This document shows positions 10,967 through 52,191 of a DNA stretch of 61,337 nucleotides, piece by piece; the first letter of the stretch is position 1, and each line of letters starts with the position of its first letter. Source of the DNA: Myxococcota bacterium. Its GTDB lineage: Bacteria > Myxococcota_C > UBA6777. Position numbers and translations under genes: made by a program. The stretch lies in the NCBI GenBank assembly GCA_023150835.1, contig JAKLKB010000023.1, positions 1-61,337 of the forward strand. Reading direction: 5' to 3'. A model generated the notes under the pieces. That model ran no database searches. It saw nothing but the letters and a program-made list of their open reading frames with translations, and was not told the DNA's origin.

Positions 10967-11125
10967 ATCGCCCGTACTACGGCGGAAACCGCGCCCACTC
11001 TCCATCTCGCCGTCCGCCTTTTTGCAAAATGTTTGCTTGAAGTCCTGCAAGGTCTCATGCTATCCTCTGTTTCTTGTGGGCTTCTTTGGTTTTGGCTCGC
11101 TTTTCAGCTTTGATAGGGTGGCTCC

Positions 11126-13378
11126 GTGAAGGTCTGTCCCAAGTGTACGCACGACAATCCGCCAGAGATGGACACCTGTGAAGAGTGCGGCGCAGATATC
11201 TCGCTTGTCGCTTCTGACGGGCTTGATCCACTCGTCGGCCAAGTTCTTGTCGGAAAATTTCACGTCAAAGAACTGATCGGCCAAGGAGCGATGGGTCGCG
11301 TCTATCGCGCTGTCCAAGCACCCATCAACCGCGAAGTCGCAATCAAGATCCTTCACCAACACCTGATGGAAGATCAACGCGTCGCTCGCCGCTTTCAACG
11401 CGAAGCAGAAGCCGCCAGTCGTTTTACTCACCCCAACTCCATCGCGATCTTTGACTTCGGACAAACCGAAAACAAATCTCTCTACATCGCCATGGAGTAC
11501 ATCGTTGGCCCCGATCTCGCTCATGTCATCTCGGAGGATTCTCCCCTTCCCATCGAGCGAGTAATCAAGATCGGCTCGCAAGTCCTCTCTGCCCTTCACC
11601 TCGCGCACAACAGCAAGATCATCCACCGCGATCTCAAACCCGAAAACATCATGCTCGCCCAAATGCCCGGACAAGACGAACTCGTCAAAGTCTGCGACTT
11701 TGGGATCGCCAAGATCCAACAGCCCGAAACCAACAAAGGCGAATCCGCGCTGACCATGTTCGGGATGATCTGTGGAACTCCTTATTATATGTCCCCAGAA
11801 CAGGCCAAAGGCGAAGAACTGGACGGACGCACCGACCTTTACAGCATGGGCGTGATCCTTTACGAGATGCTCACAGGCGAAGTCCCTTTCCGAGGCAGCA
11901 CGCCTGTAGAAGTCATCGCTCGCCACCTCACCGATCAGGCGGTCCCACCGAGCAAGATCCGAGGTGATGCTCAAATCCCCCGCGCTCTCGAAGATGTCGT
12001 CATGCGCGCCCTGCGCAAAAATCGCAACGAACGCTTCGCTTCCGCCGACGAGTTCCGTGTCGCTCTTGAAAAAGCCCGCGAAGAAACCGCCTTTCATCTC
12101 GAACTTGAGCGTGTTCTTCAAACGTCCGAAGACACCGCACGAAGACCCACTGGGATGTCTATCCCCGTAGCCACGGTCGCTTCCGTTCAGGGCGAAACGG
12201 TTGTCCGACCTTCTTCGGCCATCGCGGGCGCGCCTTCTCTTGCGCCCTCCTCATCCTCGACTTCGGTTCCTCAGATCGCCATCGCACGTGGCCGCCCTCT
12301 TCAATCCACCCCTCATCCCATGCCTGCCGCCACTCCTGCACCTCCTTCTGGACCCACGCGGGTTGGACCCGCTCCCACCCCCCCTCCTTCTGGACCCACG
12401 CGGGTTGGACCTGCTCCCACCCCTCCCGTTGCTTCTCCTCAATTCAATAACTCCATCAGCGCCATCACCCAATCCCGCGCTCCCTCGCCCTCTGCACCAC
12501 CCACCCAATTGCGCTCCCATGTTGTCCCTGCCACTCCCCCACCTCCTTCTTCGATCCTCCCTCCCGAGCGTGAGCCTCTTCCCTTCTCCAACGCTGCGCC
12601 TGCTCTCTCGGGGATCCGACCCGCTCCTGTCTTGCCCCACCACGCCAAACACAACTTTGACGAAGTCAGCGAACCCGTCGTCCAGCGCAAAGGCAGCGGA
12701 GGCTGGATCTTCTTGTTGTTGCTGCTCTTTGCCGGCGGGATCGGCGGTTATTACCTTTACACGCGCTTTGCTGCTCAAACCGATCCTCAAAACACCCTTC
12801 CTGACGTCGAAGAGCGACCTCTGCCCCACGTCCCACGACCCCAACCCAAACCCCCCACCACTCCGCCACGCCCTCAACCCGATCCTCGCATCGAAAAAAC
12901 CACCCCTCCACCACGCCCTTGGAAGCGGCGGGCTGTTGCTCGCGCCTCTTCTTCCCATCAGTCGGCCCGAAAGAACCAACTTCAAGATCTCGCGCAACAG
13001 CACAAATCGATCGTGCTGTGGATGCGCCATCACGGGATCCGCAAAGAATACCTCGAACCTTCCTCATGGAAAGATTACATCCGCTCCAGCCAAGCCCTCA
13101 GACAAAAAAACGTGCGCAAGCTTCGCGAGTACATCGAACGCCTCTCCAACCAAAAGATCGGCCAAGAAGATTATATCGATACTCAAATCCTCAAAAGGAA
13201 ATACAAATTTCTCAATAACTTGTACAAAGAAAAAAAGCGTAAAAAACGCCTCTCTATCGTGCAAGACCGCCGATGTGACGAGATCCTTACGCAGATCTTT
13301 ATCCACGATATCATGCTCCAAAAACCCCTCAAAGCCAGCAAGATGCTCAACGAAGTCCAGTCCATCCTCCTCCGCTAA
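11126..13378 (+). CDS. Zinc-ribbon transmembrane Ser/Thr kinase 1
   Basis: This 750-aa Hanks-type kinase starts at GTG 11126 with AGGGTGG upstream. Residues 1-25 form a zinc ribbon (Cys4, Cys7, Cys18, Cys21). The kinase domain spans about 43-320: P-loop GQGAMGRV, Lys74 in VAIK, HRDLKPEN with Asp169, DFG at 191-193, and the MSPEQ activation-segment end, all intact. About 200 residues rich in Pro/Ser/Thr follow, including a near-exact duplicated SGPTRVGPAPTPP unit. There is one transmembrane helix (GGWIFLLLLLFAGGIGGYYLY, about 527-547), then a Pro-rich stretch and a basic helical extracytoplasmic tail of about 150 residues with no known domain. The layout (cytosolic kinase, single span, external tail) suggests sensing through the tail. 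Substrates are unknown. Confidence 0.93.
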   Translation: MKVCPKCTHDNPPEMDTCEECGADISLVASDGLDPLVGQVLVGKFHVKELIGQGAMGRVYRAVQAPINREVAIKILHQHLMEDQRVARRFQREAEAASRFTHPNSIAIFDFGQTENKSLYIAMEYIVGPDLAHVISEDSPLPIERVIKIGSQVLSALHLAHNSKIIHRDLKPENIMLAQMPGQDELVKVCDFGIAKIQQPETNKGESALTMFGMICGTPYYMSPEQAKGEELDGRTDLYSMGVILYEMLTGEVPFRGSTPVEVIARHLTDQAVPPSKIRGDAQIPRALEDVVMRALRKNRNERFASADEFRVALEKAREETAFHLELERVLQTSEDTARRPTGMSIPVATVASVQGETVVRPSSAIAGAPSLAPSSSSTSVPQIAIARGRPLQSTPHPMPAATPAPPSGPTRVGPAPTPPPSGPTRVGPAPTPPVASPQFNNSISAITQSRAPSPSAPPTQLRSHVVPATPPPPSSILPPEREPLPFSNAAPALSGIRPAPVLPHHAKHNFDEVSEPVVQRKGSGGWIFLLLLLFAGGIGGYYLYTRFAAQTDPQNTLPDVEERPLPHVPRPQPKPPTTPPRPQPDPRIEKTTPPPRPWKRRAVARASSSHQSARKNQLQDLAQQHKSIVLWMRHHGIRKEYLEPSSWKDYIRSSQALRQKNVRKLREYIERLSNQKIGQEDYIDTQILKRKYKFLNNLYKEKKRKKRLSIVQDRRCDEILTQIFIHDIMLQKPLKASKMLNEVQSILLR

Positions 13379-17688: not shown

Positions 17689-17713
17689 GTTGCGTAACAT
17701 ACCGATACGCAAC
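17689..17713 (+). promoter_or_regulatory. 8-bp inverted repeat upstream of kinase 2
   Basis: GTTGCGTA and TACGCAAC are perfect inverted repeats with a 9-base spacer, ending 23 bases before the kinase 2 ATG. It could be an operator or a leader hairpin; there is no T-tract. Confidence 0.4.
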
Positions 17714-17736
17714 CTTTAGCAACGATTGAGAGATCC

Positions 17737-20730
17737 ATGTGGAAGTGTATCGAGTGCGGTTTTCAAGAAAATGAAGCAGGAAGCGAGCTTTGTTCGCGCT
17801 GTCAAGCACCACGCGATCCCAAAACGTTCGAGGGAGAACAGATCGGCCAGTGGCGACTTGAAAAACCCCTTGGGGAGGGCGGGATGGCGGTGGTCTTTCT
17901 CGCTCGCCACGTCATGCTCGGCTCCAAGGTCGCCATCAAGCTTTTGCGATCCGATCTCACCAACAAACGCGAAGTGATCGAACGCTTTCGCACAGAAGCC
18001 CTCGCAGCAAGTCATCTCCGACACGAAAACGTCATCCAAGTGATGGACTTTGGATTCCAAAAAGGCATCGGCTTTTACATGGTCTTGGAGTTCTTGGAGG
18101 GAAACGACCTCGAAGCCTACCTGACGGGACAGCCCATGCCTCCGCGTTTTGTCAAAGAGATCGCCAAGCAGATCGCACGTGGACTCCAAGCCGCCCATGA
18201 ATCCGGCATTATCCACCGAGACCTCAAACCCTCGAACATCTTTCTCGTCCCACGCGAAGGCTCCGATATCCCCCAAGTCAAGATCCTCGACTTTGGCATC
18301 GCAAAGATCCAAGAGTCCGAGCTTTTGGACGAGGAAAACCAAAAACTCACCCGCACAGGTACTGTCTTGGGGACGCCGTTTTATCTCTCTCCTGAACAAC
18401 TCACCCGACGCCAAGGTGTCGAACTCGGCGCAAGTGTCGATATCTATGCCTTTGGCGTTATCTTGTTCCAACTCCTCGCAGGAAAATTGCCGATCGAAGA
18501 ACCCAGTATCGCCGAGCAGATGGTCGCGATCCTCACACGAAAAGCACCGATGCTCGGCGAAGTCTTGCCCCCCTTTTCCAACTCTGCCCTCGAACTCTTT
18601 TTGCAACGCGCCTTGTCCAAATCCCCACAGTCTCGTCCTGCCACCGTCGCCGCTTTCTGGGAAGAACTTGACCAAGCCATGGGCGTTTTGGAGGATGCCC
18701 AAGAAAATACCGCCCTGCGCCAAGTCTGGGAAAAGACCTACAAAGATATCCTTGAAAAAGAGCAACCCCCTTCGCTCTTCTATCGGCTGCGCTGGGTGTT
18801 TGCGCTTCTGGCCTTGCTTGTGGTGGGCGGTGGAAGCTGGTGGCTGGCCTCGATCTTCCAGACTCCTCCGCCCCCTCCGCCTCCCCCGCGTTTGACGGGT
18901 ATCCCCCAATTCAAAGAACTCGGGATCCAAGATTTTCAAGCAGGCAAGTTCGCAAGCGCCCTCCAACGCTTCGATCAGATCGTCAGCAGCAAGCGTTGGA
19001 CAAGCTCCTCCAAAGACTTTGACCCCAAAGTCTACCGCTTGATGGCGACCGCACTTTTTGAAGCCGAAAAAGATCCGTCCAAAAAGCCCGCCTTTGCGGC
19101 TTTACAGTTTTTTCAACTCTACCTTAAACAAGCCAAGTCCTTTGATGCGGGCGAAAAAGAAGCCCTTGAAAAGAACGTGCAGCGTCTCGAACAGCGCGTT
19201 GCCGCAAGCGAGAGCGCCACCAAAGAGCTGTTGCGCGCCCTTGGAAAACACCTTAAATCGGGCGATGACAACGCAACGCTGGGCGTCTTGGATACCGCCT
19301 TTGCTTTGCAAAAAAAGGAAGCCCTCGGGCGATTGGATTATGGCCCCGATGTCTCGCTCAGCAGCGCCTACACACGCACCGCTGAGCTTCTCCAACAACG
19401 CTTCCCCGGCCTTTCCTTGGCTTTGTTGAAAAAAGCCTCGCAGATCCGACTCCCTCCCAAACAACAACGCAAACTCGTCTTGCGCTACGAAGAAATGAAA
19501 CGTGCCATCCAAAAACGCCAAGACGACGGCCTCAAAGAACTCCAAACGGCTCTTCAATCCAACGACCGCAAACAAACACAAGCCTCTCTTCGCCGCCTCT
19601 TGAGCGAAAACACCGACGATCCCTCGATCTATCGGCGCATCCGCTCGCTGTTGCTTCGCGACTATTATCAAAACCCCCAAGCCTCGCTTGTTCTGTTGCG
19701 CTTGTACCGTGACGAGATCAAGCTGACCTTGCGCCCCGATGCACAAGCTTGGTATCGCCGCCTTGTTGGAAAAGAACTCCCTTCCGTCCCCTCTCTTGAC
19801 CAAACCATCAAAGCCGGACAGTTCGGCATCAAAGGAGTTGTTGCACACAAACGCGCTCGGGCTTTCCTCGAAAAGGGCGAGATCAAAAAAGCCACCCCGA
19901 TCTTTTCCTCTGTCCCCAAGCTACTCAAACGATCGATCGAAACGCCTGAAAGCCTCTTGACACCGCTGTTTCAGCGTTTGATCCATGAAGCCAACAACGC
20001 TCAATCCAGCCTCCAACAAGCCGATGAAACGTGGAAAAAGATCGCGGCCATGGCCGAATCGGGCGATCTGCTCGGAGCGCGCAAAAGCGGCGATGCCTTG
20101 CTCGCTACGCTCAAAGACAACCCCGCTGCCGTGGCCTTGTACAAAAAACGCCTCGAAGACCAAAAGGCCGAATACTCCCAGCGTTGCGAGCGGCTCGCAC
20201 AATCTGCGCAGCGCTCTCTTGGGCGTGGTGGACTTCGTGATGCCGAGAAATACTACGAAAAAGGCGTGTCTTGTTGGAAACAGCTTGCTGCCGCTGAACC
20301 CGAACAAGCCAAACGACACGAAGGGCGCGTCGCCTCTTCTCTGCAATGGCAAGAACGCCTCCAAAAAGCAGCCCCGCTGCTCGACCAGCTACGCAAAGAT
20401 CGTGAGGCCCTTCGCAATACCTCCGCCAACCAAGGCTTTGATGCGGTGATGCCGCTGCTCGATGGAAGCCCCGCCAAACGCGTCCTCAAACAAGAGCATC
20501 TCGCTTGGGGACAACAGCGGCTACGTTATATGCGCTTCCGCCAAAAAGGCGATCAATACGCCCAAAACGAGCGCTGGGAACAAGCCGTCTACGAATACAA
20601 ACAAGCACAAAAACTCTTTCCTCGCGCCCATGATGCCCGAAATTTTCAACGGCGCATCCTTGAATGTGAATGCAATAGCGGTGTAACGTGGGAGATCTGT
20701 AAGCAGTTCAAGCGCGCAAAGCCGCGTTAA
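17737..20730 (+). CDS. Zinc-ribbon transmembrane Ser/Thr kinase 2 with long helical tail
   Basis: This 997-aa Hanks-type kinase has an N-terminal zinc ribbon (Cys4, 7, 19, 22) and a kinase domain at about 38-320. The P-loop is GEGGMAVV; Lys68 sits in VAIK, Asp162 in HRDLKPSN, and DFG is at 185-187, so it should be active. One transmembrane helix (WVFALLALLVVGGGSWWLA) lies near 353-372, followed by PPPPPPPP. The extracytoplasmic part of about 610 residues is helical and TPR-like (for example FQAGKFASALQRFDQIV and YAQNERWEQAVYEYKQAQ), rich in Lys, Gln and Leu. GAGAG lies a few bases before the ATG. Fourteen bases separate it from the PEGA-like gene, so the three-gene operon 17737-23713 likely acts together. 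Confidence 0.93.
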   Translation: MWKCIECGFQENEAGSELCSRCQAPRDPKTFEGEQIGQWRLEKPLGEGGMAVVFLARHVMLGSKVAIKLLRSDLTNKREVIERFRTEALAASHLRHENVIQVMDFGFQKGIGFYMVLEFLEGNDLEAYLTGQPMPPRFVKEIAKQIARGLQAAHESGIIHRDLKPSNIFLVPREGSDIPQVKILDFGIAKIQESELLDEENQKLTRTGTVLGTPFYLSPEQLTRRQGVELGASVDIYAFGVILFQLLAGKLPIEEPSIAEQMVAILTRKAPMLGEVLPPFSNSALELFLQRALSKSPQSRPATVAAFWEELDQAMGVLEDAQENTALRQVWEKTYKDILEKEQPPSLFYRLRWVFALLALLVVGGGSWWLASIFQTPPPPPPPPRLTGIPQFKELGIQDFQAGKFASALQRFDQIVSSKRWTSSSKDFDPKVYRLMATALFEAEKDPSKKPAFAALQFFQLYLKQAKSFDAGEKEALEKNVQRLEQRVAASESATKELLRALGKHLKSGDDNATLGVLDTAFALQKKEALGRLDYGPDVSLSSAYTRTAELLQQRFPGLSLALLKKASQIRLPPKQQRKLVLRYEEMKRAIQKRQDDGLKELQTALQSNDRKQTQASLRRLLSENTDDPSIYRRIRSLLLRDYYQNPQASLVLLRLYRDEIKLTLRPDAQAWYRRLVGKELPSVPSLDQTIKAGQFGIKGVVAHKRARAFLEKGEIKKATPIFSSVPKLLKRSIETPESLLTPLFQRLIHEANNAQSSLQQADETWKKIAAMAESGDLLGARKSGDALLATLKDNPAAVALYKKRLEDQKAEYSQRCERLAQSAQRSLGRGGLRDAEKYYEKGVSCWKQLAAAEPEQAKRHEGRVASSLQWQERLQKAAPLLDQLRKDREALRNTSANQGFDAVMPLLDGSPAKRVLKQEHLAWGQQRLRYMRFRQKGDQYAQNERWEQAVYEYKQAQKLFPRAHDARNFQRRILECECNSGVTWEICKQFKRAKPR

Positions 20731-40618: not shown

Positions 40619-42763
40619 TTACTTTCCACGTTGTTTGGCGAAACCCTTGATCTCAAAGTCTTTGAAGTCGCAGTGCGCGTTACGGCAGAAAACACCCGCA
40701 TTGAATTCTGTGATGGCTTGTGCGGGGAGTTGAAGTTGCTGGATGCTTTTGTCTTGGATAAAGGCGGAAACAAGGCCACGTTGGACGATCAGTTTGAGAT
40801 GGAGGTGTTGGCGCGTGTGGAAGGTTTCGTTGTAGGTGCCGGTGTGTTCGATCGGTGCGGTGGATGCGTTGCGTGCGGGATGGTAGTGGAGTTGGTAGCT
40901 CCATGTCCCAGCTACGGGGCGCATCCGCAAACTGATCTCGCTGCCGTCAAGTCCACGAAGCCCAAGGCCCAAGGTGGTTTGGCGCTTGTTGGCGGATTGG
41001 GTGTTTCCAAGTCCGCGCTGGAGGTGGCGCAGATAACTTTGAAGAGGGGTGTGGTTTTGGCCTTCTTTGACGATCGCGGGGAGGAAAGCGGCGCGGGTTT
41101 GAACTTCGAGGTCATCGGCTTGAAGAAGGTGGCCTTTGTAGAGAGCCCAACGCAGATCGACGTTGTGGTTGAAACCTTTGTGGTAGGTGTCTTGTTGGAG
41201 ATTTTGATCGAGGGGCTGCCAGAAGCCTTTGTTGTGCCACTGTGTGCGGGGATGGCCGCCCCAAGCGTCGGTTGCGGGTCGTGCGCGGAGATCAAAAAAC
41301 AAGCGTTGTCGGCCATCTTGGAGGGTTGTGGTTTGGGCGTATTGTTTTTCCCAAGGGATCATCACGGGCGAACCGTTGAGGTCGCGAAGGTGCGGAGGCT
41401 TGGGAGAAAACAGAAAGAACAGCCCAACGGCAAGGGCGAGGGCCAACAAAACAAGACTGGTGATGATCAACTGGCGGAGTTTGTGCGGTTCCCAATCTTC
41501 GTGGAGGTCGGAGGTTTCGGGATCTTCGGCTTCGCTGCGTCGGCTGAGCGAGGCTTTGAGGCGGCTTGGCCAAAGAGTGAGGCGTTGGCGCAAAGAGCCT
41601 TGAGAGCGTTCGGGAGCCTCGGTGAGTGCGTGAGCGGCTTCGTGATCGACGACCGTATCGCGGGGGGCGGGGACAGGCGAATGGGAGGGGATAGCGTCTT
41701 GCAGGTCCTTCCACAATTGGTCGGTCGAATCGAAGCGTTTGAGAGGCGAAGTGGCGAGACAGCGTCGGATGATCTGATCGACTTTGGGGTGTTCGGGGAC
41801 GATGATGGTGTCGGGGCCGGGGAGTCGGGGAAAGGGGAGTTGTCCTGTGACCAGTTCAAACAGGATCACGCCCATGCTGTAGATGTCAGCGCGGTGATCG
41901 ACATTCTTTGCATCGCGCCGTTGTTCGGGGGCCATATAACACTCGGTTCCCATCGAGACAAAGCTTTTGGTGAGTTTGCGGATGTGCGTGGTTTCGTGGG
42001 TGACGCCCGCGAGGCCGAAGTCTGCGACTTTGAGCGTGCCGTCTGCCGTAAAGAGCAAGTTTTCGGGTTTCAAGTCGCGGTGGATCACGCCCTTGCTATG
42101 GGCATAAGCCATCGTCTTGGTCAGATCGAGCATGATACGGACGGCTTCTTGAGCAGGAAATGCCCCGTCTTGCATGAGTTCGCGCAGAGAAGGCCCATCA
42201 ATAAACTCCATCACAAAGTAATGGCGGTGGCGATTGGCTCCTCGGTCGATGACGTACACGATGTTGGGATGATGCAACTGGGCCATCGCAGCGGCTTCTT
42301 TGGTGAAGCGCATGATCGAGGCGTTGTTTCGGGCCAGTTGGGTATCGAGTGTTTTGATCGCGACGATCCGTCCGAGGGATTTTTGAACTGCGCGATAGAC
42401 TTGGCCCATGCCACCGCGCCCGAGGCAATCTTGGATATCGTAGCCATCGATGGCAAAGCTGGGTTTTCGAGCGTTATCGCGGGGTGTAGGCAGAGGGCGA
42501 TGGCGGACGCCGTGTGCAAAGGCAGCGGGTTCTTGTGGGGAGGGCTGGGCCTCTTGGGCTTGCCCATTGAGTAGCTCCATCTCTGGCAGGCCCACTTCGG
42601 TGGGGTCGTTGTAAGCGAGGGCAAGGTTGCCGTCGGCGGCGACCGCACGCAAGAGGGCGACACGAAAGTAAGCACGACATTTGACGCAGCGGGTATGCTC
42701 GCCGTGTTTGAGTTGGCTGACGTCTTGTTCGGCTTGGCAGTGTGGACAGGCTTGCAAGTTCAT
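40619..42763 (-). CDS. Zinc-ribbon transmembrane Ser/Thr kinase 3
   Basis: This 714-aa Hanks-type kinase starts at ATG 42763 behind GGAGAGAAAG. The N-terminal zinc ribbon has Cys6, 9, 26 and 29. After a linker, the kinase domain (about 105-370) has P-loop GRGGMGQV, VAIK lysine, HRDLKPEN, ADFGLA and MAPEQ, all intact. A basic linker leads to one membrane helix (LIITSLVLLALALAVGLFFLF). The extracytoplasmic C-terminus of about 230 residues is beta-rich (LGLGLRGLDGSEISLRM, WSYQLHYHPA, HLHLKLIVQRGLVSAFI), resembling a concanavalin/LamG or DUF1080-type jelly roll. It could bind a sugar or peptide ligand. A 222-base gap separates it from the downstream same-strand gene. Confidence 0.92.
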   Translation of the reverse strand: MNLQACPHCQAEQDVSQLKHGEHTRCVKCRAYFRVALLRAVAADGNLALAYNDPTEVGLPEMELLNGQAQEAQPSPQEPAAFAHGVRHRPLPTPRDNARKPSFAIDGYDIQDCLGRGGMGQVYRAVQKSLGRIVAIKTLDTQLARNNASIMRFTKEAAAMAQLHHPNIVYVIDRGANRHRHYFVMEFIDGPSLRELMQDGAFPAQEAVRIMLDLTKTMAYAHSKGVIHRDLKPENLLFTADGTLKVADFGLAGVTHETTHIRKLTKSFVSMGTECYMAPEQRRDAKNVDHRADIYSMGVILFELVTGQLPFPRLPGPDTIIVPEHPKVDQIIRRCLATSPLKRFDSTDQLWKDLQDAIPSHSPVPAPRDTVVDHEAAHALTEAPERSQGSLRQRLTLWPSRLKASLSRRSEAEDPETSDLHEDWEPHKLRQLIITSLVLLALALAVGLFFLFSPKPPHLRDLNGSPVMIPWEKQYAQTTTLQDGRQRLFFDLRARPATDAWGGHPRTQWHNKGFWQPLDQNLQQDTYHKGFNHNVDLRWALYKGHLLQADDLEVQTRAAFLPAIVKEGQNHTPLQSYLRHLQRGLGNTQSANKRQTTLGLGLRGLDGSEISLRMRPVAGTWSYQLHYHPARNASTAPIEHTGTYNETFHTRQHLHLKLIVQRGLVSAFIQDKSIQQLQLPAQAITEFNAGVFCRNAHCDFKDFEIKGFAKQRGK

Positions 42764-42850
42764 ACTTTCTTTCTCTCCAAAACAGACCATGGGCGATCTT
42801 GCCCTTGCAGTGGGTTTATACGCCTGTTGTGGCACGCGATCAGAGAAAGA

Positions 42851-43867
42851 TCAATTTTTTGGCTTGGTTTGGTGGGAGGAGCGAAGAAGGTCGATCAGTT
42901 GTTGGAGGTCGGGCGGGAGGGGAGAGTCAAAGCAGAGAGGCTCTTGGGTGACGGGATGGGTAAAGGCGAGACGCGCAGCGTGGAGGGCTTGGCGAGGGAA
43001 GTTGCGCAAGAAGTTCGGCCAGTTGTGGGGAGCCGTACCGCCATAAAGAGCATCCCCGATCAGCGGGCGTCCACGATCCGCAAGATGGACGCGGATCTGG
43101 TGCGTTCGCCCCGTATGAAGGCGCAATTGAACCAACGTCGCCAACGCATAACGCTCCACCACCACGAGATCTGTGATGGCGCGGCGTTCGCTTTCCACCA
43201 ACGAGCTAAAGCGCAAACGCTGCGTAGGATGCCGTCCATAGGGCGTATCGATGTGGAGGCTGTCTTCTTGGAAATGGCCGCGTGCGATCGCGAGATAACG
43301 GCGATCAAGGTGTTCTTTGGGGCGCAATCGAAACAGATCCGAGAGACCCCGATGGGACTGATCGTGTTTGGCAACCACCAACAAGCCCGAAGTATCGCGG
43401 TCTAAGCGGTGGACGATCCCGGGACGCAACGCGCCGCCGATCCCCGAAAGATCGCGGCAACGGTGTAACAACGCATTGACGAGCGTTCCGCTTGAATGTC
43501 CCGGGGCTGGATGGACGACCATCCCGACGGCTTTATCGACAACGATCAAGTGTTCGTCTTCAAAAACGATCTGGAGCGGCAGATCTTCGGGGATGGCGGT
43601 GATCGGCTCGGGCGGGGGAGGGATGATCTCGATGGTATCGCCCGAATGGATGCGATCTGCTGGGCGTGCAGGGCGATGGTTGCGGAAAATATGGCCTTCT
43701 TGAATCCAACGCTTGAGTTGAGATCGGCTGTAAGGCAAGCTATCGAGAGCCGCGAGAAAGCGATCAAGCCGTTGTTGGGCGTCTTGGGGGGAAACTTGAA
43801 GGACCAGTGCAGCGGATTCGGCTGAGGCTTCTTCGCTATCTTCCGTTAATTCGATATCTTCGTCCAC
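42851..43867 (-). CDS. rluD: RluA/RluD-family 23S rRNA pseudouridine synthase
   Basis: This 338-aa enzyme isomerises uridines to pseudouridine in large-subunit rRNA. An acidic N-terminal extension (about 25 residues) precedes an S4 RNA-binding domain (QQRLDRFLAALDSLPYSRSQ). The catalytic domain follows, with the catalytic Asp156 in HRLDRDTSGLLVVAK. Other family motifs are VDKAVGMVVHPAPGH, LHTGRTHQIRVHLA and PLIGDALYGG. The S4 domain and length favour RluD or RluC over RluA. The start is GTG at 43867 with AAAAAGG upstream. A family 2 repeat lies directly upstream, within about 40 bases. Confidence 0.93.
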   Translation of the reverse strand: MDEDIELTEDSEEASAESAALVLQVSPQDAQQRLDRFLAALDSLPYSRSQLKRWIQEGHIFRNHRPARPADRIHSGDTIEIIPPPPEPITAIPEDLPLQIVFEDEHLIVVDKAVGMVVHPAPGHSSGTLVNALLHRCRDLSGIGGALRPGIVHRLDRDTSGLLVVAKHDQSHRGLSDLFRLRPKEHLDRRYLAIARGHFQEDSLHIDTPYGRHPTQRLRFSSLVESERRAITDLVVVERYALATLVQLRLHTGRTHQIRVHLADRGRPLIGDALYGGTAPHNWPNFLRNFPRQALHAARLAFTHPVTQEPLCFDSPLPPDLQQLIDLLRSSHQTKPKN

Positions 43868-44521: not shown

Positions 44522-44641
44522 CGGGCGGACTCTTGTGGCACGCCATATAGAGACCAAAGCGAGACACCCCTTAGAACAAAGGAGAACCCGACAAAAACGC
44601 ACGATGTTTTCGGTGTGTTTTTCTCGGGTGCTTGTCGGAAG

Positions 44642-47600
44642 ATGACAGAAAAGAAGAAGTCACCCGAGGAAGAAAAGCTGTCCCTTGATGTTCCCGACGC
44701 GTCGTTGTTCCCAGCACTCCAAGAAGACGGAGCCAAGAGAGCGAGCGCTTCTTCCCCGGAAAAACGCAGCCCAGCCAAAGATACCTTTACAAGGGGATTA
44801 AAGGGTCTTGTGGACCCCAAGTCTTTGTTGGAGGCCGACAGTTCGGCTTCTTCTTCAAATGTCGAAAAAGGCCCGTTGTTGCCGAATCCACCCCCCACCC
44901 ATCTCTTGCGTTTGGGGTTCGATGGCCCGATGCCAACCCAAGGCGATCTGAATGCGGTGAGTGCGTCCTTGACGGAGATCGCCCCCGAACCGTTGACGCC
45001 TTTTTCTGCTTTGTCGGGCAGTTGGGAGCGTTGGGGGGGGGCCGCTTTTTTGGACCCTCGCCGTGTTGAACCGCCTCCCCATACCTCGCCTATCTCGGCA
45101 CAGCCCACTCAAAAAGTCTCTTCTTCGGGAAACGCCCCCAATCGGCCAGCCTCGGCACAGCCCACTCAAAAAGTCTCTTCTTCGGGAAACTACCAAACCT
45201 TTTCGGAGGTTGTGCGTGAGCAATCCCGATCGCTTTGGGAACAACCCCAAGAACCCGCCCCGTCACCACAGCCCGCACCCTCTTCTTCACAAATACAGCC
45301 CGATCCATCGCTCGCACAGCCCGCACCCTCTTCTTCACAAATACAGCCCGATCCATCGCTCGCACAGCCCGCACCCTCTTCTTCACAAATACAGCCCGAC
45401 CCATCGCTCGCACAGCCCGCACCCTCTTCTTTGCAAATGCAGCCCGATCCATCGCTTGCCGCACAAGATCCTTTGACGCCGATTGCAGCGGTGGCCTCGT
45501 TGTCTTTGCAGGAAGGGCAGGGCGCGGCCCCCAAAGGCCCATTTAATGCGGGTACGAGTCCATCTTCCACAATGTGGCCGGCCTCTGAACCCAGTTCACC
45601 GCACGAAGACGGGAGTTTTTCTGCGGCTTTTTGGGCCATCGTCGAAGATGCTCCCACTTCTCCCGATGACGATCTGCCGCCCCCTGCCTCGCACGTCCAA
45701 GCAAGTCCTTATCAGCCGTCTCCTCGCCCGTTGGTGGATCCGCTCAAACCTCCGAGTCCGCCTTCCACCCAGTCTCACTTCGATCGCGCCTCTGCCCCCT
45801 TCGACCCGCGCAGGAACCCTGCACTTGATGACGCCGAGGGTCATTCCCCTGCACCGACTTTCCATCCGTATGCTTTGGCCGACTCTCGGGACTTTGGGAA
45901 GCGATCGCCTTCGGGTGGATACGCGATCATGGAGCAGGACGAAACGCAGCTCGAAGATCTCAGCAAGCCCGCCATGCCTGCCGAATCCAAAAGTGCTTGG
46001 GATACTTCCACCCGCAATAAAGCAAAAAGTGTAGAGCTTTCCGCCCCGCCTACACGGACCTCTTCAACAAAGATCGAGACGAACATCCAAGAGGCCACTC
46101 AAGCCTCGCCGACGCGGACTTCTTCATCAAAGATCGAGACGAACATCCAAGAGGCCACTCAAGCCTCGCCGACACGGACTTCTTCATCAAAGATCGAGAC
46201 GAACATCCAAGAGGCCGCACAATCCTCCCGATCGCTCGCCGCCAAAGAGCGCGAAGTGCAGCTTTTGCGTGCGGCCCAACCCACCGACGAGATGCCCACG
46301 TTTACGCTATGGCCCGAAACAGAGGAACCCAAGCCCCACCGCACAAACCCTGCTTCTGCGGTGTGGCCTTCTTTGAATGAATCCGCTGCGCCTCCTGTTC
46401 ATGCCTCCAGCGCGGCGTTTTGGTCGCTCGCCGAACCTGAACCCGCCACCTCGCAGAAAACCACCTTGCCTTCGGTGAAAGCGCCTTCTGATCCTTCCCT
46501 CGCGCAGATCGTGCTAACCGATGCCTCCGACCTGTTGGAGCTGTCCGATTTTTCTGATGTCTCTGAACTGCCTGATCCCTCGAATGACCCGCAATTTTTG
46601 CACTTGGCAAACCCATCTGCGATCTCTGACGTTCCGAATCCATCGAGGCATCCGAACTTGTCCGAGATGTCGGATGCGATGAGGTTTGCAGATTCGTCGG
46701 ATCTCTCGGATGTTATGGAATTTTCGGACGCATCGGATCTCTCGGACGTTATGGGATTTGCGGACGTGTCGAGTCGCAACGATGCACCTGCCTTGAGACG
46801 CGATGCGTCTGTTTTGAAACACTGGCAACAGCCATCTGAAATGGCTCAAGCGATGGCGATGTGGGGAGAAGCGCCTCATGCGCCCGCTGCTTTGCCTGTC
46901 GTGGACAGCCCTCCAACACAACGGCCCTCTTCTCACCGCCGCGAAGTGCGTCAAAGCGCCGGAGATACGCTCGAAGAACCGACCGTAAGCGAGACCCGCT
47001 CCTCGAAGAAGCCCACCCCGCAGGAGGCCAAGAGAAAAGCCATGATCGATCACCCCCACGATCCGACCGATCCATCGCTACAGGATGGATCACGAAAACG
47101 CCGTTCGACTCCATCTTACGCAGATCTTGATGTGGTGCGAAAACTTCAATCGATGTGGATGTTGCCGCCTGAACTGCAAGCCTACGAGCGCGAAGATCGC
47201 GTTGCCATCGGCGACACGGGGATTCATCCTGTTGTGGGTCAACGCGGCACAAACCCGATGGTACCTCCGTTGGCAAAAGCTGCGCGTGGCGAGAGCGGCC
47301 CCCTTCCTTCGGCAGATCTCTCTCAGAAGATCGATCTCTCGAAAAGCACCGAAGCCCCGAACGATACAGAACAAGCCGAGATCGCTTTGGTGGTTTCGAT
47401 TGCACAACAAAAACTGCCGAAGCCGCCTGCTGCTGAGATCCGGCGTACAGTGCTTCCCGAGTACAAACAGCGGGCTGCTGGGGATGCGATCTTGCGGCGT
47501 GTGCAGGCGCGCTACGAAAGCATCCAAGTCATGTCCGAAGATGCGATGTGGCAGATCGAACTCGTTCGCGATCTGGATCTGAAACGCACCGTCGCGATCA

Positions 47601-48583
47601 AACGCTTGAAGCCTGAAATGCACATCCCCCACGCTGTGCTGCGGATGGCCGAAGAAGTTCAGATCATGGCGGGTCTCGCGCATCCCAACATCCCCGAGAT
47701 CCACGATGTTGGCGTCGATGAACAAGGCCGCTATTACTTTGTGATGGAACACCTCAAAGGCGAAACCATGCGTTCCATCCTCAAGAAACTCGCAAGCGGG
47801 GACGTTCGCTATCAAAAGCGATTCCCTCTCCAAACGCGATTGTTGATCTTTCGAGAGGTGCTTCGCGCTGTCGAATATGCCCATCGTAAGGGCATCTTGC
47901 ATCGAAACCTCAATCCTGCGCATGTGGTGGTTGGCGCACGCGACGAAGTCAAGCTCTTGGGTTGGGAGTTGGCTTACAAGTTTCACTCGATGGGCCAAGA
48001 CCCCGAACCGATGGGCGCAGAAGCGATGGATGCGATCTTTGCACCGATGGCTCCGATCCCCGGCCTTGTCACCTCCGAAGTCTTTCGGACACGCGATGGC
48101 CGCATCCAAGGCAGTCCCGCTTACATGGCCCCCGAACAGATCCGAAACCTCTCTTTGTTGATCGACGAACGCAGCGATGTGTACGGCTTGGCGACGCTAT
48201 TCTACGAATGGATCGGATTGCGCTATTATCTGGGACCCAAAAAGACGCTTGATGATCTTAGCGAAGGGATCGTTCGCGAAGAACCTGTTCCTTTGCATCT
48301 GCTTCGTTCCAATGCGCAGCCCGATCTTCCTTGGTCTGTCAGCCAGTTTGCAACACGCGCTTTGCAAAAAGATCCCAACCAACGTTTTGGATCGGCTGCG
48401 GAGATGCGTGCAGCTTTGGAGGCCGTGATCGTGGGAGGAGGCATCACACACAACGGAACACTCCCGCGTGCCTTGCGTTTTTTGGAAGAAAGACCAATTT
48501 GGGCGGGGTCTCTTTTGATCTTGTTTGTTTGTACGTTGATCCTCAGCGGGGTTCAGATCGCAACGTGGTTGCGGGCTTTTTGA
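44642..48583 (+). CDS. Giant membrane-anchored pseudokinase
   Basis: This 1,313-aa protein starts at an ATG just after GGAAG. About 960 residues of Pro/Ser/Ala/Asp-rich, apparently disordered sequence come first, with several tandem repeats. The kinase-like domain is about 965-1270. It keeps the VAIK lysine (VAIKRLKPEM, about 984-987) and the regulatory-lobe motif GSPAYMAPEQ. But the P-loop is lost (MSEDAMWQI where the neighbour has LGEGAVGEV), HRDLKPSN has become HRNLNPAH, and DFG has become LGW. It therefore lacks the catalytic base and the metal-binding Asp and Asn, and should not phosphorylate in the usual way. A C-terminal helix (WAGSLLILFVCTLILSGVQI) anchors it. Its closest visible relative is the next gene, an intact kinase of identical layout. 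Confidence 0.88.
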   Translation: MTEKKKSPEEEKLSLDVPDASLFPALQEDGAKRASASSPEKRSPAKDTFTRGLKGLVDPKSLLEADSSASSSNVEKGPLLPNPPPTHLLRLGFDGPMPTQGDLNAVSASLTEIAPEPLTPFSALSGSWERWGGAAFLDPRRVEPPPHTSPISAQPTQKVSSSGNAPNRPASAQPTQKVSSSGNYQTFSEVVREQSRSLWEQPQEPAPSPQPAPSSSQIQPDPSLAQPAPSSSQIQPDPSLAQPAPSSSQIQPDPSLAQPAPSSLQMQPDPSLAAQDPLTPIAAVASLSLQEGQGAAPKGPFNAGTSPSSTMWPASEPSSPHEDGSFSAAFWAIVEDAPTSPDDDLPPPASHVQASPYQPSPRPLVDPLKPPSPPSTQSHFDRASAPFDPRRNPALDDAEGHSPAPTFHPYALADSRDFGKRSPSGGYAIMEQDETQLEDLSKPAMPAESKSAWDTSTRNKAKSVELSAPPTRTSSTKIETNIQEATQASPTRTSSSKIETNIQEATQASPTRTSSSKIETNIQEAAQSSRSLAAKEREVQLLRAAQPTDEMPTFTLWPETEEPKPHRTNPASAVWPSLNESAAPPVHASSAAFWSLAEPEPATSQKTTLPSVKAPSDPSLAQIVLTDASDLLELSDFSDVSELPDPSNDPQFLHLANPSAISDVPNPSRHPNLSEMSDAMRFADSSDLSDVMEFSDASDLSDVMGFADVSSRNDAPALRRDASVLKHWQQPSEMAQAMAMWGEAPHAPAALPVVDSPPTQRPSSHRREVRQSAGDTLEEPTVSETRSSKKPTPQEAKRKAMIDHPHDPTDPSLQDGSRKRRSTPSYADLDVVRKLQSMWMLPPELQAYEREDRVAIGDTGIHPVVGQRGTNPMVPPLAKAARGESGPLPSADLSQKIDLSKSTEAPNDTEQAEIALVVSIAQQKLPKPPAAEIRRTVLPEYKQRAAGDAILRRVQARYESIQVMSEDAMWQIELVRDLDLKRTVAIKRLKPEMHIPHAVLRMAEEVQIMAGLAHPNIPEIHDVGVDEQGRYYFVMEHLKGETMRSILKKLASGDVRYQKRFPLQTRLLIFREVLRAVEYAHRKGILHRNLNPAHVVVGARDEVKLLGWELAYKFHSMGQDPEPMGAEAMDAIFAPMAPIPGLVTSEVFRTRDGRIQGSPAYMAPEQIRNLSLLIDERSDVYGLATLFYEWIGLRYYLGPKKTLDDLSEGIVREEPVPLHLLRSNAQPDLPWSVSQFATRALQKDPNQRFGSAAEMRAALEAVIVGGGITHNGTLPRALRFLEERPIWAGSLLILFVCTLILSGVQIATWLRAF
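45269..45460 (+). repeat. Four 48-bp units in the pseudokinase linker
   Basis: Four tandem units encode QPAPSSSQIQPDPSLA. The first three are nearly identical and the fourth is diverged (SSLQMQ). Confidence 0.9.
46052..46231 (+). repeat. Three 60-bp units in the pseudokinase linker
   Basis: Three tandem units encode TRTSSSKIETNIQEATQASP with few changes, a second independent expansion in the same disordered region. Confidence 0.9.
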
Positions 48584-48626
48584 TACTGTCTCCCCGTTGG
48601 TCCGAAAACAAAGGAACTTTTTTCGC

Positions 48627-51600
48627 ATGACCAAGGGAAAGTCTTTTCCTCCTTCGTCCAGTATCTCTGTCTTTCCCAAAGAAAAAGTTGACGATGCGCG
48701 GCGCGTGACCCAAGACAAAGTTCTTGGAATCGTTGATCCGTTGCTTTTGATGGAAACCCCCGCTGCTGCGCCCAAAGCCTCCAAAAAAAGTAGCGCCTTG
48801 GACGCCATGATGTCGACGGACGATGCGCGCATCGATGATATCTTTGATAGCCTCTTTTTCTCCGAAAACCCCCCTGTCATCGAAGAAGATCTGCTTCGTC
48901 GAAAAAATACCTCCATCGAATCCGCAGTCCAACTTGCAGCCCTCGAAGCTGCCGAGGTGTTCGGCATAAAAACCACCGAACACCTCGCTGCACCACACGA
49001 CTCTTCGGCTCCGCACACCTTCCATCCCTCGCTCGATGCCGTTGCCGCCGCGACACCCTCCCCAACGGGAAACCTCCCCTCGTCTTCGACTTTTTCCGAT
49101 GCGGATGTGGTTGCTTCGCCTCCTTCTTCGGGGGCTTTGCAGCGGCTGCAACATGCCCGAACAGACGGTGATCTGTCGGTGGCCTCCCATGCCCGAACTG
49201 GCGGCGATTTGTCGATGACCCCCAATCCACGAGCGACACAGTTTTCGACGCCTGCCTTGCCTGTGGATCTCAGTACCCTTCAGTTCTCTGCGCCACTTGC
49301 GCAACACGCGATCGTCGAACCCTCTGCGTTGATCCCTCCCGAATCCAAAGGAGATATCTCTTTTCCGATCCCTCTGCCCTCTACAGATCCCAAAAAAGCC
49401 GTCACTTCGCCCTCTACCATCCCATCGGCTTTTCCTTTGGTGGGTGTGCAGCGCTCCCCTTTTCATCTGGCGGCCGATACCTCGTCGAGCCTATCGAAAG
49501 GGCCTGCTGCGGTGCCTTCTTCCGCTCCTTCAAAAACGCCCGATATATCGGCTTCTTTGCAAGATGGGTCATTGAATCCACACGCGACACGGGTTGGATT
49601 ATCGCTTGGGCAATTGATCAATCCGATGGAACTGGGCGTGGAGCTTGTGCAACTTAGCGAAGCCGATCTCAAGGGATCTTTTGGCGATTTTTCCGCCCCC
49701 ACCGCAACCTCCGAAGATTGGGCGGCTCCAAGCACTGCTTCGTCGTCGCTCAACGATCTCCACGAATCTTTCGATGATATCGCACGCGAACCCTTTGGAG
49801 AGGCGTCCCGCGAATCCTTCGACGATATCGCACGTGATGAGTGGACCCCGCCTCCCGACGAAGCCGCCCCCTTGCGGGGCGACACGATCAACCCACTTCA
49901 AACGGCGATGTTTCGTTCTGCTGTCGAGCCTTCACCCCTCGCGCCTGTCTCCATCGAACACCTTTTGCCCAACGAACCCGCCGCAAGCCCACCCACCGCT
50001 CAACCACCCAACGTCGCGCCTTCTCTCTTTCCCGCAACGCGCTTTTCTGAAACGCTTCCGCTCGCCCGCCCGACAGCTTCACAAGGCGCTGCCCTCGGTC
50101 TCTTCGAAGGAACCCCTCTGCGCCACCCCTTGCCACCGCCACAATCAACATCTTCACAGGGCGCTGTCCTCGATATCTTAGAAGGAACCCCTCTTCGCCA
50201 CCCCTTGCCACCGCCACTCGCGGAAACTTCACGGGGCGCTGCCCTTGAGATCTTGGAAGGAACCCCCGCCCATGAAACGACGTTGCCGATGCAACGTCCC
50301 CATCTTTCGACGATCCCGACAAATGAGACGGGTCATACCCCAAGACCTCCAACGCCTCCGCCTCCTAGCCTAAACAAACCTGTTCGGGGCCTTACGCCTC
50401 CGCCTCCTTCTGCGGTCGCAGCGACCCTACAGGACACACCGCGCCCATCGCTCGGTGGCTCGGGGCTTTCTGTCGGAGCCACCTTGCAGGACACGCCCCG
50501 CGCTTCTTTGGCAAATCCGCCTTCTTTGGGGGCCACCTTGCAAGATCAACCGCTCGCCACTCCGAACAAGCCCAACCCCAAGACGCGCACCACCATCTCC
50601 AAAGAAGAAGTCGACTCAGGCGTCTTGTGGAGCGCCGTCCCTGCGCCTTCTTCTCGATCAAATGAAGAAGATCACGCCCCCGAAGAAACCGTCCTCGAAG
50701 CCGAAGTCTCCACCGCCATGAAGGCGATGTCGATGGATCTGTTGAACCCCAAGTCCTCGTATCCATCGGAACGATCGAATCCTAAATCCTCGCATCCCTC
50801 GGAACTGCCGAATCCCAAGTCTTCTTCGCCATCCGCCTCACCTGCTCCCACCGCTACGGCCCCGCAAAGCCCAGACAGCGGCCTCGATCAGACATGGCTT
50901 GCCCATCCTCCACAAGGAACCCATGCGGCTTCCTCGCTGCCTTCGGCTCCCAACAGCGCGATCGCCGGAAATTCCCGAAACACCACGATCCTCCCAAAAG
51001 TCCGTATGACGGGCAAAGTACACGAACTGATCAACGAGATGCGCGAACGCTACGAGGTGGTCCGCAAGCTTGGCGAAGGAGCCGTCGGAGAAGTCAGCCT
51101 CGCCAAAGACAACGATATCCAACGCCTTGTCGCGATCAAACGCCTCAAAGAACCCACCCCCCAAACAGGCTCTTTGGCCCGATTTGTCGAAGAGATCCAA
51201 ACCAACGGACAACTCGAACACCCCAATATCGCGCCTGTGCATGACGTCGGGATCGATGCAGAAGGCCGATACTTCTTTGTGATGAAGTATGTTCGTGGCG
51301 AAAACCTCGAAGAGATCCTCGAAAAACTGCGCAAAGCCGATGCCGAAACCCACCGCCTCTATACACCACATTATCGGGCTCAGATCGCTTTGGAGATCTT
51401 GCGCGCTGTCCAATTTGCCCATGAACAGGGCGTGATCCATCGTGACCTCAAGCCGTCCAACGTGATCGTCGGACCACACGGCGAAGTCATGGTCATGGAC
51501 TGGGGCATCGCCAAGACCTTGCGCACGTCCTCTTCTACCCCTCCGATGGCGTTGCCAGAGGCCCATCCATCGCTGTTTTCGGGCGATATCCTCCAAAAAG

Positions 51601-52136
51601 AAGAACGTGTCTTTGAAACGAGCGTCGGCACCTTGATCGGGACACCTGCGTATATGTCCCCCGAACAAGCGCTGGGATTGAATGACCGTATCGATCAGCG
51701 TAGCGATATCTACAGCTTGTGCGCCATGTTGTACGAATTCTTTAGCCTGCAACATTACATGGGCCACAAAACCGATATCAAGTCCATGCTGATGGGTATC
51801 CTCACCGAAGAACCTGTGCGCATGGATTTTGTTCGCCATCCCCATCAAGATCCCCCGTCGCGTATCCTCGCCGCGCTCTTGCAAAAAGGACTCTCCAAAG
51901 AACCCGCGCAACGTTATGCTTCTGTTCAAGAACTCAGTCACGCCATCCAACACGACTACCTCGAAGGCCAAAATGCGGTCGCTTGTTCGTACTCCCTCAC
52001 GCGCCGAACTGGAAACGAACTCTTGCGCTATCTCGACCGACATCCGAGCCTTGCGCCGATGTTGGCCGTCACGTTGGTCTCCTTTGCCTTGTTTGGCGGG
52101 GCGGCTGCGGTGTATTTTCTGGTTCGGTTGTTTTAG
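48627..52136 (+). CDS. Giant C-terminally anchored Ser/Thr kinase
   Basis: This 1,169-aa protein starts at the ATG 11 bases after AAGGA. About 810 residues are disordered (Pro/Ser/Thr/Ala), with internal repeats such as three EGTPLRHPLPPP-type units and NPKSSYPSE repeats. The kinase domain (about 815-1110) has P-loop LGEGAVGEV, VAIK lysine near 835, HRDLKPSN near 937, DWG in place of DFG (common in this kinase group, Asp retained) and GTPAYMSPEQ, so it should be active. A C-terminal helix (MLAVTLVSFALFGGAAAVYF) anchors it with almost nothing outside. Sequence and layout match the pseudokinase 43 bases upstream (VHDVGIDAEGRYFFVM versus IHDVGVDEQGRYYFVM), so they arose by tandem duplication and are probably co-transcribed. 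Confidence 0.92.
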   Translation: MTKGKSFPPSSSISVFPKEKVDDARRVTQDKVLGIVDPLLLMETPAAAPKASKKSSALDAMMSTDDARIDDIFDSLFFSENPPVIEEDLLRRKNTSIESAVQLAALEAAEVFGIKTTEHLAAPHDSSAPHTFHPSLDAVAAATPSPTGNLPSSSTFSDADVVASPPSSGALQRLQHARTDGDLSVASHARTGGDLSMTPNPRATQFSTPALPVDLSTLQFSAPLAQHAIVEPSALIPPESKGDISFPIPLPSTDPKKAVTSPSTIPSAFPLVGVQRSPFHLAADTSSSLSKGPAAVPSSAPSKTPDISASLQDGSLNPHATRVGLSLGQLINPMELGVELVQLSEADLKGSFGDFSAPTATSEDWAAPSTASSSLNDLHESFDDIAREPFGEASRESFDDIARDEWTPPPDEAAPLRGDTINPLQTAMFRSAVEPSPLAPVSIEHLLPNEPAASPPTAQPPNVAPSLFPATRFSETLPLARPTASQGAALGLFEGTPLRHPLPPPQSTSSQGAVLDILEGTPLRHPLPPPLAETSRGAALEILEGTPAHETTLPMQRPHLSTIPTNETGHTPRPPTPPPPSLNKPVRGLTPPPPSAVAATLQDTPRPSLGGSGLSVGATLQDTPRASLANPPSLGATLQDQPLATPNKPNPKTRTTISKEEVDSGVLWSAVPAPSSRSNEEDHAPEETVLEAEVSTAMKAMSMDLLNPKSSYPSERSNPKSSHPSELPNPKSSSPSASPAPTATAPQSPDSGLDQTWLAHPPQGTHAASSLPSAPNSAIAGNSRNTTILPKVRMTGKVHELINEMRERYEVVRKLGEGAVGEVSLAKDNDIQRLVAIKRLKEPTPQTGSLARFVEEIQTNGQLEHPNIAPVHDVGIDAEGRYFFVMKYVRGENLEEILEKLRKADAETHRLYTPHYRAQIALEILRAVQFAHEQGVIHRDLKPSNVIVGPHGEVMVMDWGIAKTLRTSSSTPPMALPEAHPSLFSGDILQKEERVFETSVGTLIGTPAYMSPEQALGLNDRIDQRSDIYSLCAMLYEFFSLQHYMGHKTDIKSMLMGILTEEPVRMDFVRHPHQDPPSRILAALLQKGLSKEPAQRYASVQELSHAIQHDYLEGQNAVACSYSLTRRTGNELLRYLDRHPSLAPMLAVTLVSFALFGGAAAVYFLVRLF

Positions 52137-52174
52137 ACGGATAGCCGATCGGTTGTTTTAGACGGATAGCCGAT
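52125..52174 (+). repeat. Perfect 25-bp tandem duplication at the kinase stop codon
   Basis: Two identical 25-bp units (52125-52149 and 52150-52174) cover the TAG stop of the kinase, followed by a partial third. Each contains the palindrome CCGATCGG across the junction. It sits between convergent genes. Confidence 0.9.
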
Positions 52175-52191
52175 CGGTTTTCCTGTTCGGT

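Follow-up and report, generated by a model that had tools for sequence, protein, structure and literature searches.

Pseudokinases are common among myxobacterial kinases, making up 11 of the 99 Ser/Thr kinases of M. xanthus (PMC6791715), and a catalogue of bacterial pseudokinase families exists (PMC12599244), so that an earlier note on the DNA described here went too far in calling dead kinases that control an active partner rare in bacteria. Among the closest described systems is MviN/MurJ of M. tuberculosis (family ActPs3), a membrane protein with a dead Ser/Thr kinase domain that forms a back-to-back N-lobe dimer, has L750 and D793 as dimer residues, and is controlled by the active kinase PknB (PMC12599244). 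The active kinases PknD and PknB are themselves allosterically activated by N-lobe dimerisation (PMC3601408), and in S. aureus PknB the dimer residues are Arg9, Tyr10, Leu32 and Asp75 (PMC3372466).

Here we describe two adjacent genes, P1 and P2, on contig JAKLKB010000023.1 of a Myxococcota bacterium, of which the whole 61,337-nucleotide stretch analysed is referred to as the window. P1 and P2 share with PknB, PknD and StkP a kinase fold, a predicted cytosolic kinase with a single membrane helix after it, and N-lobe dimer residues, but they have no PASTA or other outside sensor, they carry a long disordered cytosolic tail, and P1 is dead by sequence. Whole-protein scores against the PASTA kinase equivalog NF033483 were 183.7 bits for P2 and 134 bits for P1, where the cut-off is 450. 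As in MviN, a dead Ser/Thr kinase domain is found in a membrane protein and the dimer Leu and Asp have equivalents in P1 (L980 and D1022). Unlike P1, MviN has lost both VAIK and HRD and bears an activation-loop deletion, whereas P1 has VAIK and a full-length activation segment; the MviN domain also lies within a peptidoglycan-synthesis membrane protein with no adjacent homologous kinase, whereas P1 has a tail and an adjacent active homologue. Like the M. xanthus pseudokinases, P1 belongs to a minority of dead kinases in a myxobacterial-type kinome (PMC6791715). In the open-access literature that we searched we found no operon of a pseudokinase and an active homologue, which is weak evidence of novelty.

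Layout of the gene pair

The features of the locus are collected in Table 1; the gene lengths, coordinates and 43-base gap given in the earlier note proved exact on re-checking. That the two proteins are homologous is borne out by their kinase domains, which are 33% identical over 409 aa (E 2e-69), and the layout ascribed to both (a long disordered N-terminus, a kinase fold and a single C-terminal membrane helix) is indeed present in each. Hydrophobic 19-residue windows occur at the C-terminus only in both proteins, and the C-terminal helix is common to aligned members of the subfamily. As there is no other hydrophobic segment, P1 and P2 are best read as tail-anchored proteins whose kinase domain and tail both lie in the cytosol. 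To call this architecture inverted from the usual is an overstatement, kinase then membrane helix being the usual bacterial order; the departure lies in the absence of an extracytoplasmic sensor and the addition of a cytosolic disordered tail.

Table 1. Features of the P1/P2 locus, in window positions.
Feature	Position	Strand	Basis
P1, pseudokinase gene, 1,313 aa	44642..48583	+	ORF, Pfam, subfamily alignment
P1 N-terminal tail (residues 1-954), of low complexity and rich in S/P/A; 8 or more islands conserved in both species; dN/dS 0.28	44642..47503	+	
P1 residues 780-904, conserved segment N-terminal to kinase domain; genus only; model mostly low-confidence	46979..47353	+	
P1 pseudokinase domain, about residues 955-1263: HRN, GWE, VAIK kept, G-loop without glycines	47504..48430	+	
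P1 C-terminal membrane helix, about residues 1285-1310	48494..48571	+	
Intergenic gap P1/P2, 43 bp, same letters in second species; Shine-Dalgarno-like AAAGGAA before P2	48584..48626	+	
P2, active kinase gene, 1,169 aa	48627..52136	+	ORF, Pfam, subfamily alignment
P2 N-terminal disordered tail, with islands of conservation and repeats of [ST]LQD; residues 1-795 have dN/dS 0.25	48627..51044	+	
P2 kinase domain, about residues 807-1118: LGEGAVGEV, VAIK, HRDLKPSN, DWG	51045..51980	+	
P2 C-terminal membrane helix, about residues 1141-1166	52047..52124	+	
Inverted repeats of terminator-like form that overlap the P2 stop and continue past it, toward the convergent XerC/D gene	52124..52179	+	consensus match only

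A strong terminator is absent between P1 and P2, and terminator-like repeats follow P2; the arrangement is thus operon-like, as judged from the DNA. The stop of a 13-codon ORF (ATG...TGA, 44604-44645) and the start of P1 overlap in ATGA, and the ORF keeps its frame and length in a second species of the genus; it may be translationally coupled to P1, or the overlap may be due to chance. The window also contains three more Ser/Thr kinases (11117-13375 and 17698-20727 on the + strand, 40622-42850 on the - strand).

The tails (954 residues in P1, about 806 in P2) hold no Pfam domains, the kinase being the only Pfam domain of P1, and both are S/P/A-rich with in-frame tandem repeats. The repeats lie at 45267-45456, 46043-46231 and 50073-50266, with units of 48, 60 and 75 bp, and these stretches differ in the second species. 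The tails have evolved by substitution and change in repeat copy number around conserved islands, including P1 780-904, for which no match was found outside the genus. The two tails have 5 5-mers in common, against a shuffle mean of 2.9 and maximum of 7, and so show no excess. The motif [ST]LQ[DE], chosen after looking, occurs 2 and 4 times in the P1 and P2 tails, against 0.1 and 0.0 expected, and is mostly conserved in the second species.

Catalytic motifs and predicted fold

The Pfam Pkinase profile gives E 3.9e-42 for P2 and E 1.9e-23 for P1, and in P1 the match begins past the G-loop. Motifs were placed in an alignment of P1 and P2 with 21 family members, which upheld the earlier account of motifs kept in P2 and lost in P1, with VAIK and the APE region retained in the latter. 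P2 has all catalytic motifs (K838, HRD938-940, K942, N945, D958-W-G960) and, by its sequence motifs, is a Hanks-type Ser/Thr kinase with G-loop, VAIK, HRDxKxxN, DxG and an APE-type motif. In P1 the G-loop reads MSEDAMWQI in place of LGEGAVGEV, all three glycines being replaced (S, D, W); the catalytic loop has N1089 for the HRD Asp, N1091 for Lys (K168) and H1094 for Asn (N171); and the DWG position is occupied by G1107-W-E1109. The loss of this last motif had been reported as LGW, which was correct as to the loss and out of register, the in-register change being GWE for DWG. Retained are VAIK K987, αC E1005, APE1163-1165, the αF Asp D1179 and R1248, and the activation segment is full-length with a short insert only, its region still reading GSPAYMAPEQ.

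Among 76 positions near-invariant in active members, P1 is changed at 9 of the 12 nucleotide or catalytic positions and at 14 of the 64 others (Fisher p = 7e-4); by this alignment the loss is concentrated in catalytic positions. With the HRD Asp and DFG Asp both gone, the VAIK Lys present and the kinase fold kept, P1 has the hallmarks of a pseudokinase from its sequence and predicted fold; it is without the residues for phosphate, metal and proton handling, and is in that sense dead by sequence.

An AlphaFold2 model of P1 (residues 790-1313, 34 sequences) gave a confident kinase fold with a core pLDDT mostly of 80-98, followed by the terminal helix; confidence was low for the activation-segment insert and for the residues N-terminal to the kinase. 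P2 was likewise modelled as a kinase fold with a terminal helix. The top Foldseek match of P1 in the PDB was M. tuberculosis PknB (1mru), with a TM of 0.85 on the target. The equivalents of the PknB dimer residues are R957, Y958, L980 and D1022 in P1 and R808, Y809, I831 and D873 in P2; in this mapping the catalytic positions of the PknB sequence are in register. L980 and D1022 also correspond to the back-to-back dimer residues of MviN. P1 could easily have retained these residues by chance, because they are conserved subfamily-wide and so few of the non-catalytic near-invariant positions have changed.

Comparison with described pseudokinase families gave partial matches at best. ActPs2 has Arg for the β3 Lys, HRN for HRD, a DFG deletion and a 250-residue activation-loop extension (PMC12599244); P1 shares the HRN and a C-terminal helix, but its Lys is kept, its GWE is undeleted and its activation-loop insert is short. 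The three-motif loss and activation-loop deletion of ActPs3/MviN are not seen, P1 having VAIK and no deletion, and the GLW pseudokinases have GLW for HRD and Leu or Trp for the β3 Lys where P1 has HRN and VAIK. The CP1 pseudokinases have no membrane helix and a linked COG3899 domain, whereas in P1 the helix is present and the kinase stands alone; the DYD pseudokinases have Arg for the β3 Lys and have lost the αC Glu, both of which P1 keeps. Going by the published definitions, P1 falls outside the catalogued families compared.

Selection, relatives and origin of the pair

The window's phylum code comprises five genomes, some of them incomplete (G000, the window's own, and G001-G004), and what we say of co-occurrence rests on these. 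The second species of the genus (G001; Myxococcota bacterium KLAP109) has the same two genes in the same order, with every residue lost from P1 conserved as lost, so that the adjacent pair recurs in a relative as the earlier note had asked; inside the genus we found neither a P1 orthologue with HRD and DFG nor a failure of the two genes to co-occur. Between the species the P1 kinase domain and helix are 98% identical, with dS 0.25 and dN/dS 0.043 over 368 codons (Nei-Gojobori), close to the 0.032 of the P2 kinase domain and helix; the tail values of Table 1 come from the same method. The 43-bp gap is letter-identical in both species, the dS of flanking coding sequence being about 0.25. An assembly error or decay was rejected as the source of P1, given the same pair in the independent assembly of the second species and the strong purifying selection. 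Since P1 is nearly unchanged since the species split, with its fold kept, it should have a non-catalytic function, and its status as a real, selected pseudokinase is well supported at the sequence level.

Beyond the genus the picture changes. In G003, a member of another genus of the same family, synteny across the locus is complete (kinase, RluD-type pseudouridine synthase, small ORF, long-tailed active kinase, XerC, TPR protein), the long-tailed active kinase is 48% identical to P2, and P1 is absent from it. A different gene lies beside XerC in G002, and the XerC gene was not found in G004. G003 does have a pseudokinase of the same subfamily (G003:C95; L055 8467-10698, - strand) at an unrelated location, with its own tail and no kinase neighbour; it has lost the G-loop, the β3 Lys and DWG (also to GWE) and has kept HRD. 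A pseudokinase with the DWG-to-GWE change is thus present in each of the three genomes having a P2 orthologue. The pairing cannot be taken as general or ancestral, given a sister genus with a syntenic P2 without P1 and an unpaired pseudokinase elsewhere; from these genomes it is young or lineage-limited.

P1 and G003:C95 group at 94/89 in the tree; both are long branches, and dropping one leaves the other without a firm place. Firm orthology of the two was not accepted on account of these long branches, of D-to-G and G-to-E each being one-base transitions, and of C95 scoring better against active paralogues than against P1. The GWE lineage may predate the genus; alternatively, the change to GWE may have occurred twice. 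A simple tandem duplication of P2 is no more than a candidate origin of P1: the best tree sets P1 apart from P2, closer to G000:C123 and G004:C1 and with the G003 pseudokinase at its side, though the AU test does not reject a P1+P2 clade (p 0.11). P1 is too divergent to be placed beside P2 in the tree.

In a search of 195 Myxococcota genomes, 95 had a match, almost always one per genome in the best-scoring cluster, and the subfamily there usually consists of one gene, about 430 aa long. HRD was intact in 30 of 30 loci read; DWG was printed for 28, a simple motif search having caught another site in two. Within the window's phylum code the subfamily has expanded, with several copies in each of four genomes out of the five, several of them long-tailed. 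The window's own genome has 153 Pkinase matches. Of 20 kinases read there for their low scores or poor G-loops, just one more had clearly lost a catalytic Asp, with HGY for HRD (L070; G000:C206, about 42325-43056), and another kinase (L069; G000:C138) has HRD intact and DPG for DFG.

Possible roles of P1

Our best explanation, at a probability of roughly 0.45, is an operon of tail-anchored P2 and a dead allosteric partner, P1, that pair through their N-lobes. P1 would be a membrane tail-anchored, catalytically dead homologue and partner of active P2, both lying on the cytoplasmic side of the inner membrane and meeting through the back-to-back N-lobe interface of PknB, PknD and the MviN pseudokinase. 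As an allosteric partner P1 would most likely activate P2 by stabilising its active form, and the long tails, with their short conserved islands, would serve for docking and as substrates of P2. What has stood of the kinase/pseudokinase pair first proposed is a selected P1 in an operon-like unit with an active homologue; the contact between the two we infer from sequence and analogy, and the two known P1/P2 pairs are near-identical and too few for coevolution. A more demanding version, an obligate tail-anchored heterodimer from a genus-level operon with P1 switching on P2 through the N-lobe and both tails acting as scaffolds, as a counterpart of KSR-RAF or STRAD-LKB1, seems to us doubtful.

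The chief alternative is that P1 is a scaffold, much as phosphorylated MviN is, in which case the P1 tail would be phosphorylated by P2 or another of the more than 150 kinases and recruit effectors, no allostery being needed. Such a non-catalytic phospho-platform has an experimental precedent in the recruitment of FhaA by PknB-phosphorylated MviN (PMC12599244), and agrees both with the many conserved islands of a P1 tail that otherwise drifts and with the sister-genus GWE pseudokinase that has its own tail and no kinase neighbour; yet it leaves unexplained why the kinase domain is the most conserved part, and we hold it possible, if somewhat improbable. The same conserved interface and membrane anchoring would serve a negative regulator, a dominant-negative decoy that occupies the P2 dimer interface or substrate site and blocks homodimer activation, and the preserved P+1 region would suit it too; the evidence does not favour inhibition over activation, the preference for activation coming from analogy with known N-lobe dimers, and we think a negative role unlikely. 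The VAIK lysine and αC glutamate would be explained if P1 retained nucleotide binding or had a different activity, as SelO and SidJ do, but the equivalents of metal-binding D184 and of N171 are G and H, and a G-loop stripped of its glycines, one of them replaced by Trp, makes this very improbable. As for a functionless decaying duplicate, the long P1 branch in trees is in its favour, but with a frame of about 1,300 codons intact in two species it is barely credible, and for the genus the dN/dS of P1 refutes it.

Although pseudokinases themselves are already known in bacteria, P1/P2 is a real, selected and lineage-restricted pair. As in STRAD-LKB1, KSR-RAF and the TYK2/JAK JH2-JH1 domains, the activity of a live kinase domain is proposed to be governed by a dead one; unlike in these eukaryotic pairs, the partners are separate tail-anchored bacterial proteins of recent, unrelated origin, and their interaction is putative. 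Experiments on bacterial Ser/Thr pseudokinases are sparse, and an operon of a dead and a live kinase offers an explicit, testable partner, with the sister-genus locus without P1 as a natural before-and-after comparison. The P1/P2 operon could reveal whether bacteria, too, have evolved the allosteric control of kinases by pseudokinases that eukaryotes have.
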